A stretch of 64,000 nt of DNA from Sulfurivermis fontis (GTDB taxonomy: Bacteria; Pseudomonadota; Gammaproteobacteria; Thiohalomonadales; Thiohalomonadaceae), in the NCBI RefSeq assembly GCF_004001245.1, contig NZ_AP018724.1, forward strand, positions 1,356,501 through 1,420,500, given 5' to 3'. The notes below the pieces were generated by a model. That model searched no databases. It was not told the DNA's origin and worked only from the letters and a program-made list of their open reading frames with translations. Below are positions 1,028-62,638 of this stretch, in pieces. A program made the position numbers and the translations under genes. Each line of letters begins with the position of its first letter. Positions within the stretch are counted from its first letter, which is position 1.

Positions 1028-1180
1028 GGAAGCTCTGAATAAGTTCAGAGCTTCCGCGGCACAGGGATGTGCCGCCATTTTCCAACGACGATAAGTCGTT
1101 GGAAAATGAAGCCAAGCGAAAATCACACTTTTCGCTTGGCGTGGTCTGAAAAGTCCAGGATGGACTTATTCAGACCTTCC
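1028..1180. mobile_element. IS5-like five-hairpin MITE, copy 1 (intact, 153 bp)
   Basis: A 153-bp non-coding element with imperfect terminal inverted repeats (GGAAGCTCTGAATAAGT left, GGAAGGTCTGAATAAGT on the opposite strand at the right end). It is flanked by a direct TTAA duplication at 1024-1027 and 1181-1184. The interior folds into five successive hairpins with almost no spacer. It lies between the cas6 remnant and the dnr-like gene. The ends and the 4-bp duplication resemble the IS5 group of IS elements; no transposase is encoded. Confidence 0.85.
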
Positions 1181-26715: not shown

Positions 26716-27204
26716 GTGAGAAAATTAGGATGTGCAGTAGCCATGTGTGTCATTGCAACCACAGTTAGCGCTGAAAACGTAGTGGTCAAGCAAGCACGGG
26801 AGGCAGGGGTCAAGCGCTGCATGCCTGCGATTGAAAAGATTGCGAACTTTTTGATTGGGGATGGCAATGCGGGCGTACACAGCGTTTGGAACTCCGACAA
26901 TCCAGACAAGCAAGCGTTCAGCGCGGTTATTGAGCGAAACTATAGCGATGGAGCTATCGTTACAAACCTTAACGTAACTCCTGTGCCAACAGGCCAATGT
27001 TATGTCGAGTATGAGAAAATAATTCAATTTAATAAATCATGCCTTGCTGCCGCACAAGAGTTCAAAGGTGCTGAATATAAAGGCGAGGTGAACAAGGAGG
27101 TTGGCGCATTGAACCACAATGGAGTGCATGTTTACCTCATCCCATCCGGTACTAATTGTATTGTTGTGCGCAAAGAGATAATCATGGATGGCCTTAAGCT
27201 GTAG
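26716..27204 (+). CDS. Secreted hypothetical protein in an integron-type cassette
   Basis: A 162-aa protein with a signal peptide (RKLGCAVAMCVIATTVSA, cleavage near SA-EN) and four cysteines in the mature part (RCMP, GQCYVEY, KSCLAA, TNCIVV), so two disulfides are possible. Function unknown. The GTG at 26716 is preferred because AGGAGA precedes it and it begins a clean signal peptide. It lies between two attC sites. Base composition is AT-rich compared with the core genes. Confidence 0.75.
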   Translation: MRKLGCAVAMCVIATTVSAENVVVKQAREAGVKRCMPAIEKIANFLIGDGNAGVHSVWNSDNPDKQAFSAVIERNYSDGAIVTNLNVTPVPTGQCYVEYEKIIQFNKSCLAAAQEFKGAEYKGEVNKEVGALNHNGVHVYLIPSGTNCIVVRKEIIMDGLKL

Positions 27205-27265
27205 TTGCTAACAGTGGGTTCCAGCCGACCGAAAATCGCTACGCGCTTTTCGGTCGGCTGAATCC
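27205..27265 (+). repeat. Truncated integron attC site 2
   Basis: It begins with TTGCTAAC just after the cassette stop codon and folds through GGGTTCCAGCCGACCG and CGGTCGGCTGAATCCC, with a further GAAAA/TTTTC pairing inside. The right end carrying GTTAGC is missing; sequence of the five-hairpin MITE follows directly at 27266. Confidence 0.65.
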
Positions 27266-27379
27266 CTGTGCCGCCATTTTCCAACGAGGATAAGTCGTTG
27301 GAAATTGAAGCTAATCGAAAATCACACTTTTCGATTGGCGTGGTCTGAGAAGTCCAAGATGGACTTGTTCAGACCTTCC
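27266..27379. mobile_element. IS5-like five-hairpin MITE, copy 2 (5'-truncated, diverged)
   Basis: 114 bp matching the right three-quarters of the 153-bp element: the 3' arm of hairpin 2, then hairpins 3 to 5 and the right end GACCTTCC. The left end and hairpin 1 are absent, replaced by attC sequence. This is the most diverged copy. Its fourth stem keeps pairing through compensatory changes (AATCG with CGATT where the others have AAGCG with CGCTT). CTAA follows the right end. Confidence 0.8.
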
Positions 27380-48552: not shown

Positions 48553-49812
<1,260 letters not shown>

Positions 49813-49965
49813 GGAAGTTCTGAATAAGTTCAGAGCTTCCGCGGCACAGGAATGTGCCGCCATTTTTCAACGACGATAAGTCGTTGAAAAATGAAGCCAA
49901 GCGAAAATCACACTTTTCGCTTGGCGTGGTCTGAGAAGTCCAGGATGGACTTATTCAGACCTTCC
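49813..49965. mobile_element. IS5-like five-hairpin MITE, copy 3 (intact, 153 bp)
   Basis: Intact 153-bp copy flanked by GTAA at 49809-49812 and 49966-49969. The left duplication includes the icd stop codon. It differs from copy 4 at few positions, for example GGAAGTTCTGAA in the left arm, which leaves a G-U pair. It may act as the icd mRNA 3' structure. Confidence 0.88.
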
Positions 49966-50446: not shown

Positions 50447-50485
50447 GGGCAAAAATCCTGGGCAATAACGCGCAATATGATATAG

Positions 50486-50638
50486 GGAAGCTCTGAATAA
50501 GTTCAGAGCTTCCGCGGCACAGGGATGTGCCGCCATTTTTCAACGACGATAAGTCGTTGAAAAATGAAGCCAAGCGAAAATCACACTTTTCGCTTGGCGT
50601 GGTCTGAGAAGTCCAGGATGGACTTATTCAGACCTTCC
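50486..50638. mobile_element. IS5-like five-hairpin MITE, copy 4 (intact, 153 bp)
   Basis: Intact copy flanked by ATAG at 50482-50485 and 50639-50642. The hairpins are at 50486-50513 (12-bp stem), 50514-50533 (8 bp), 50534-50566 (14 bp), 50569-50598 (12 bp) and 50601-50634 (15 bp with one bulge). Only 8 of 153 bases lie outside the five hairpins. Confidence 0.88.
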
Positions 50639-50660
50639 ATAGGAGTGGTTTGTGTTGCTT

Positions 50661-50928
50661 GGCGCATCCCTGCGCCTCACCCCCTGCGGGGGCTGAAGCG
50701 ACGAATCGCTCCCGGCGATTCGTTGTTCGGCGCATCCCTGCGCCTCACCCCTTGCGGGGGCTGAAGCGACGAATCGCTCCCGGCGATTCGTTGTTCGGCG
50801 CATCCCTGCGCCTCCCCCCTGCGGGGGCTGAAGCGACGAATCGCTCCCGGCGATTCGTTGTTCGGCGCATCCCTGCGCCTCCCCCCCTGCGGGGGCTGAA
50901 GCGACGAATCGCTCCCGGCGATTCGTTG
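50661..50928. repeat. Four tandem 67-68-bp units, each of three hairpins
   Basis: Unit starts are at 50661, 50729, 50797 and 50864. Each unit contains GGCGCA-TCCC-TGCGCC, then a C4-6 / G4-5 stem around TGC, then ACGAATCGC-TCCC-GGCGATTCGT. Units are nearly identical, with variation mainly in the C-tract length. The array ends 22 nt before the alaC start region and is not a CRISPR, since there are no variable spacers. Confidence 0.9.
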
Positions 50929-62433: not shown

Positions 62434-62638
62434 GGAAGCTCTGAATAAGTTCAGTCCTTCCGCGGCACAGGGATGTGCCGCCATTTTTCAACGACGATAA
62501 GTCGTTGAAAAATGAAGCCAAGCGAAAATCACACTTTTCGCTTGGCGTGGTTTTGTGCACGGATGGACTTATGTCGCGCAGCCCATGGAGGGGCGAGAGC
62601 GACCTGAGAAGTCCAGGATGGACTTATTCAGACCTTCC
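62434..62638. mobile_element. IS5-like five-hairpin MITE, copy 5 (with 52-nt insertion)
   Basis: A 205-bp copy. Hairpins 2 to 4 match copies 3 and 4. The 3' arm of hairpin 1 is altered (TTCAGTCCTTCC). About 52 nt are inserted within the left arm of hairpin 5, containing a partial duplicate of the right end (GGATGGACTTAT) and a stem GTCGC/GCGAC. Flanks are TGAG (62430-62433) and TTAG (62639-62642), a 3-of-4 match. The right end abuts the stop codon of the next, leftward gene. Confidence 0.85.

Follow-up and report, generated by a model that had tools for sequence, protein, structure and literature searches.

The window analyzed here, the whole 64,000-nucleotide stretch of Sulfurivermis fontis DNA, contains five copies of a short element. 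The element's end motif, CTGAATAAGT, was counted 8 times there, against an expectation of 0.03. The copy at 50486 serves as our reference. The copies and their parts are as follows:

1028 to 1180, plus strand: 153-bp copy with target duplication TTAA
27266 to 27380, plus strand: 5'-truncated copy, its left part exchanged for an unrelated hairpin
49813 to 49965, plus strand: 153-bp copy with duplication GTAA, adjoining the ORF at 48553-49812 at its TAA stop codon
50486 to 50638, plus strand: 153-bp reference copy, with the same sequence as the commonest genome copy
50482 to 50485 (left) and 50639 to 50642 (right), no strand: target-site duplication ATAG flanking the reference copy
50486 to 50513, plus strand: hairpin 1, formed on the left terminal repeat GGAAGCTCTGAATAAGT
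50514 to 50533, plus strand: hairpin 2, GCGGCAC[AGGGAT]GTGCCGC, its loop (50521-50526) a C-G-closed ANGGAN hexaloop (CsrA/RsmA consensus)
50534 to 50566, plus strand: hairpin 3, with a covarying stem and a loop usually ending in AA
50569 to 50598, plus strand: hairpin 4, with a covarying lower stem, an invariant AAAA/TTTT top and the loop TCACAC (consensus YSRCRY)
50601 to 50634, plus strand: hairpin 5, overlapped by the right terminal repeat, with the loop CC[AGGAT]GG at 50615-50619, an A(N)GGAX pentaloop
62434 to 62638, plus strand: copy of a 205-bp subfamily, in which a 52-bp insert separates hairpins 4 and 5
62555 to 62568, plus strand: first extra hairpin of the 205-bp form, GTGCACGGATGGAC (consensus GTCC[ACGGAT]GGAC)
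62581 to 62594, plus strand: second extra hairpin of the 205-bp form, GCCC[ATGGAG]GGGC

A preliminary description had given exactly 153 bp for the copies at 1028, 49813 and 50486, and the coordinates (1028-1180, 49813-49965 and 50486-50638) agree. The copy at 27266 is 5'-truncated, as described, with hairpin 1 missing. The copy at 62434 is indeed enlarged, to 205 bp, but it is no oddity, belonging as it does to a subfamily of about 37 genome copies. In the copy at 49813-49965, the hairpin 2 loop is AGGAAT, in which AGGA is retained. Ahead of the truncated copy, at the place of hairpin 1, lies another long hairpin (CAGCCGACCGAAAA...TTTTCGGTCGGCTG, 27180-27270), which is perhaps recombined or perhaps a second repeat family. 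Beside the reference copy is a tandem array of four 68-bp units (50654-50928). On the minus strand, each unit carries GGCGC[AGGGAT]GCGCC, a CsrA-type hexaloop, together with a second hairpin that has a GGA loop, and on this strand RsmV and RsmW of Rfam match below threshold. Apart from weak partial matches at two places, near 976781 and near 980324, the array is unique in the genome.

Refolding of the reference copy reproduced the five hairpins first claimed for it, with identical stems of 12, 8, 14, 12 and 15 bp and 8 bases unpaired outside the hairpins. The RNA fold has a free energy of -95.3 kcal/mol (z -15.1), which 0 of 200 shuffles equaled, and folding as DNA gave z -17.0.

A pattern search of the 3.25-Mb genome found 116 exact right ends, of which 66 are forward and 50 are reverse, and 0 matches to a reversed control pattern. 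The anticipated copies outside the window therefore exist, and "present five times" holds inside the window but not genome-wide. At least 16 copies among the matches listed are 100% identical to the reference. We mapped 96 copies, namely those in the genome stretches read around copies; their sizes group at 153 bp (59 copies) and 205 bp (29 copies of exactly this length in the larger class). Both ends are present in 93 of the 96, and a perfect 4-bp target duplication flanks 79 of these 93. The duplications are of the YTAR type in 65 of the 79, the commonest being TTAA, TTAG, CTAG and CTAA. By our own simple codon-usage gene predictor, used in place of a published gene finder, 0 of the 96 copies lie within a predicted gene; all are intergenic. 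The element is short, non-coding and bounded by GGAAGSTCTGAATAAGT as terminal inverted repeats, and its intergenic positions and target duplications mark it as a transposable unit, as had been proposed, rather than part of a conserved gene.

Some copies lie in nested or repeated arrangements. At L014, an element adjoins the end of another with TTAA between them, and at L088 (1323-2637) the host's resident insertion sequence (IS) of the IS5 family lies directly adjacent to an element copy, with CTAA in common; insertion into the duplicated target of a pre-existing copy seems to be frequent. Head-to-tail element arrays with a period of about 124 bp, from which hairpin 1 is absent, occur in G038 (L074, 1321-1760). 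Genome G038 has several such arrays; their units are joined so that each hairpin 5 is immediately followed by hairpin 2 of the adjacent unit.

An IS5-type MITE had been suggested as the origin of the element, and the YTAR 4-bp duplications, together with a resident IS5-family IS that has similar ends, bear this out as far as mobility is concerned. The resident IS is 1158 bp long, is present in five copies, encodes an IS5-family transposase (NCBIfam NF033581) and has a YTAR target. Its ends match those of the element at 15/17 bases on the left and 13/17 on the right; an IS with ends identical to the element was not found among the transposases detected by PF01609 in the host genome. A carrier genome, G321, contains a related IS whose transposase is 61% identical to that of the resident IS; this IS is bounded by perfect GGAACCTCTGATTA repeats, which many of the elements also have, and is flanked by an ATAA duplication. 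More generally, genomes other than the host's contain IS5 elements whose ends resemble those of their own elements. At two loci where end pairs lie 1.1-1.6 kb apart (L194 and L231), we found ordinary genes inside and no IS. Comparison of ends and duplications makes mobilization in trans by IS5-type transposases a well-supported prediction. The other half of the MITE reading, an interior that is a trimmed IS, did not hold: we rejected derivation of the interior from an IS because the core is a module common to many families with other terminal repeats and because the resident IS ends show none of the element's hairpins. A REP/REPIN mobilized by a RAYT (Y1), which leaves no target duplication, was also rejected, since copies of the element have target duplications.

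One ~150-bp body of five hairpins is found combined with terminal repeats of four kinds and with target duplications of three kinds:

Type A: GGAASCTCTGA, target duplication of 4 bp, YTAR type
Type B: CAGGCTGTTGAAAAA, target duplication of 4 bp, YTAR type
Type C: GAGGGTGTCGCAAAA, target duplication of 5 bp (TCTTA, TCGAA, TTTGA)
Type D: GTGTGCATCC, target duplication of 6 bp (TAAATA, TAAGTA, TACATA)

Total element length is constant over types A-D (150-153 or 161-163 bp). Type D elements at L187, L131, L126 and L183 have 6-bp TANNTA target duplications. Transposase partners of types B, C and D were not found; one carrier has an IS1182-family remnant with ends (GAGGCTGTAGAAAAA) near types B and C. 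Because one body bears four terminal-repeat and three duplication kinds, a single transposase is no explanation, and the target duplications suggest that three or more transposition systems have been employed. These observations bear on the reading that the element is an ordinary IS5-derived MITE, with hairpins that serve transposition only or result from palindrome-correcting template switching and GGA loops that are accidental and have no function in RNA. The target duplications, the existence of IS5 partners and the position of the terminal repeats inside hairpins 1 and 5 all fit such a MITE, but the association of one core with so many terminal-repeat and duplication kinds does not, nor do hairpins 2-4, which contain no terminal repeat. 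We consider this reading unlikely.

To follow the core into other genomes, we used a model, R1, that comprises hairpins 2-4; hairpin 5 lies outside it. R1 matched 66 of 369 genomes of the host's class (50 of 272 genera) and 44 of 398 genomes sampled from the phylum, 41 of the 44 being outside the host's class. The named matches are exclusively gammaproteobacterial or proteobacterial MAGs. We disregarded reverse-strand matches (27-40 bits), taking them for a product of the quasi-palindromic layout. No match to the element came from phage, plasmid or viral collections, which therefore give no indication that it spreads on records of these kinds. In the second class, copies have the identical five-hairpin layout. 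In 72 diverse copies, pairing is kept in 95.5% of the pair cells, double changes occur at 33 of 34 pairs, and the covariation score is 0.561, compared with 0.151 for shuffled and at most 0.125 for slid alignments. Across genomes, the stems of the core have been almost wholly exchanged by compensatory change, with the loops fixed. Covariation by itself is no proof of RNA function, since palindrome-correcting template switching could contribute; that strand-switch repair can hold palindromes symmetrical without selection is a further point for an ordinary MITE.

The fixed loops are of a known kind. CsrA/RsmE binds with high affinity to an ANGGAX hexaloop set directly on a C-G-closed stem, and less tightly to forms without the N (PMC4005645; PMC4894983). 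The hairpin 2 loop is the published CANGGANG / ANGGAX-on-C-G motif with its N positions free: over the 72 diverse copies its columns read C71 A69 N G71 G69 A70 N G71, a conservation that is in part ascertainment because R1 includes hairpin 2. The loop A opposite a variable base is kept with no need to pair, as recognition, not pairing, would require. Of 74 diverse copies, about 72 have GGA in the apical loop of hairpin 5, on unrelated stems (the L152 loop is reversed), and so do nearly all of the second-class copies inspected; in type A copies, hairpin 5 has the weaker pentaloop form, a point against recognition by CsrA. The 52-bp insert adds two hexaloop sites, GTCC[ACGGAT]GGAC and GCCC[AGGGAG]GGGC. 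Copies of the two sizes differ in their sense-strand sites, with two in 51 of the 59 copies of 153-bp size and four in 32 of the 37 larger copies. Antisense sites occur in 0 of the 96 copies, and the background is 43 sites in about 374 kb of surrounding sequence, both strands counted. In 205-bp copies, fixed motif positions vary at 0 of 24 (P = 1.2e-4, approximate because the copies have common ancestry) and N/X positions at 4 of 7. Most full element RNAs would present at least two ANGGAX or A(N)GGAX loops on C-G-closed stems. Palindrome correction leaves these fixed, strand-specific A(N)GGAN loops (hairpin 2, hairpin 5 and the insert twice) unexplained, which counts against an ordinary MITE.

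The conserved loops match the CsrA/RsmA recognition hairpin, and we infer that they are predicted CsrA binding sites. Our preferred reading, which we consider probable from sequence comparison, is that the element is a non-autonomous, IS5-mobilized transposon whose body is an RNA module with two CsrA/RsmA hairpins, or four in the 205-bp form. An element of this type might serve as a movable decoy or switch acting on CsrA, a global RNA regulator. Among the functions guessed earlier, a small structured RNA comes nearest to this, and stabilizer, terminator and nuclease target received no specific support. Hairpins 1, 3 and 4, including the conserved hairpin 4 loop, have no CsrA explanation, which weighs against the preferred reading. 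The AAAA/TTTT stem top and YSRCRY loop of hairpin 4 (50569-50598) are constant across the two classes, and the conserved hairpin 4 segment AAAAYSRCRYTTTT suggests a second partner.

The host genome has one csrA. In the phylum sample, csrA was found in 41 of 44 carriers versus 179 of 354 non-carriers, an association confounded by taxonomy; the carriers without it are two assemblies that are 69-74% complete and a third that rests on a single marginal match. Among good-quality assemblies of the host's class, 55 of 58 carriers and 225 of 256 others have csrA, a difference that is not significant (P = 0.16), and three such carriers are without it; both points count against the CsrA reading. In two carriers from one family, G142 and G256 (drafts 95% and 55% complete), csrA was undetected; the pair is a natural test case for GGA-loop decay without CsrA.

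We then considered where copies lie relative to genes. A stop codon adjoins 35 of the 96 copies, which are probably in 3' untranslated regions, a point also in favor of the CsrA reading, and there are more convergent sites (29) than divergent ones (15). Together with the very stable RNA fold, these positions speak for a structural insulator at the RNA level: a 3' untranslated stretch made up of hairpins that would stabilize or protect mRNA, or be a nuclease target, independently of CsrA. However, stop-codon adjacency is also expected from YTAR targets, which contain TAA or TAG, and stability alone does not need invariant loops, so that we regard an insulator as quite improbable. The upstream gene reads into the sense strand of 58 copies and away from it in 37, a slight bias (P = 0.04) that is a weak point of the CsrA reading, and copies between co-directional genes are sense in 26 cases and antisense in 22; that the orientation bias is not strong is compatible with an ordinary MITE. 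Leaders contain some of the copies (11 lie in sense orientation at most 60 bp upstream of a start), as would be expected if copies chiefly brought single genes under CsrA control, through cis-regulatory spread and not titration. Copies are far commoner near gene ends than near starts, which argues against cis-regulatory spread as the chief role, and we give this reading very little credence.

In the preferred reading, that of a mobile CsrA-binding RNA, IS5-type transposases would move the element in trans, and a copy would be transcribed by read-through out of the neighboring gene. Hairpins 2 and 5 of the transcribed copy would then capture a CsrA dimer. The dispersed copies together would constitute a distributed CsrA decoy, and a single copy in an untranslated region could put the adjoining gene under CsrA influence. 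A broader proposal, for and against which we see about equal chances, is that the element belongs to a two-class proteobacterial transposable superfamily with a CsrA-binding RNA payload, which would have used unrelated transposases by changing only its terminal hairpins and which would titrate CsrA or rewire genes into the Csr network.

No Rfam family, CsrB/RsmZ families included, matches the element at gathering score. Sub-threshold matches include CrfA, RsmV and RsmW, with RsmV positions 161-177 falling on hairpin 2. TwoAYGGAY (RF01731) and Bacillaceae-1 (RF01690) have two GGA loops per RNA and are predicted CsrA ligands (PMC4333381); unlike our element, they are not known to be described as mobile. 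TwoAYGGAY does not match the element even at relaxed Rfam thresholds, and Bacillaceae-1 gives a single sub-threshold match (E 1.2), which falls on the opposite strand of one copy. The QMITEs of Coxiella burnetii are gammaproteobacterial MITEs with possible structured transcripts and are a source of sRNAs (PMC10969869); by their description, they are set apart from the element as IS-derived with 7-9 bp direct repeats (PMC10969869). The elements in the papers on Thiomargarita and on prokaryotic MITEs that we consulted are different ones. A search of the open-access literature found no description joining CsrA with MITEs, transposons or repeats; although both MITEs and RNAs that sequester CsrA are known, their combination is unreported there.

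The usual view of MITEs is that they are decayed, payload-free ISs, and RNAs that sequester CsrA are usually regarded as dedicated genes of the host. If our reading is true, there is a direct route to titrate or rewire a global post-transcriptional network and a testable reason for the persistence of an all-hairpin element, and annotation would gain a large, uncatalogued family of structured repeats. Like IS5-family MITEs, the element is non-coding and of high copy number, with terminal inverted repeats, 4-bp YTAR duplications and similar-ended resident IS5 transposases; unlike them, it has a conserved structured module as its interior, with no IS remnant, and several unrelated kinds of terminal repeat. 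Like the CsrB/RsmX/Y/Z sRNAs, it has several stem-loops with A(N)GGAX loops on C-G-closed stems, but these sRNAs are one or a few dedicated genes, whereas the element is dispersed and transposable, with no promoter or terminator identified. It would thus unite MITEs and CsrA RNAs, keeping CsrA-type hairpins over dozens of families despite new stems and a new transposase.
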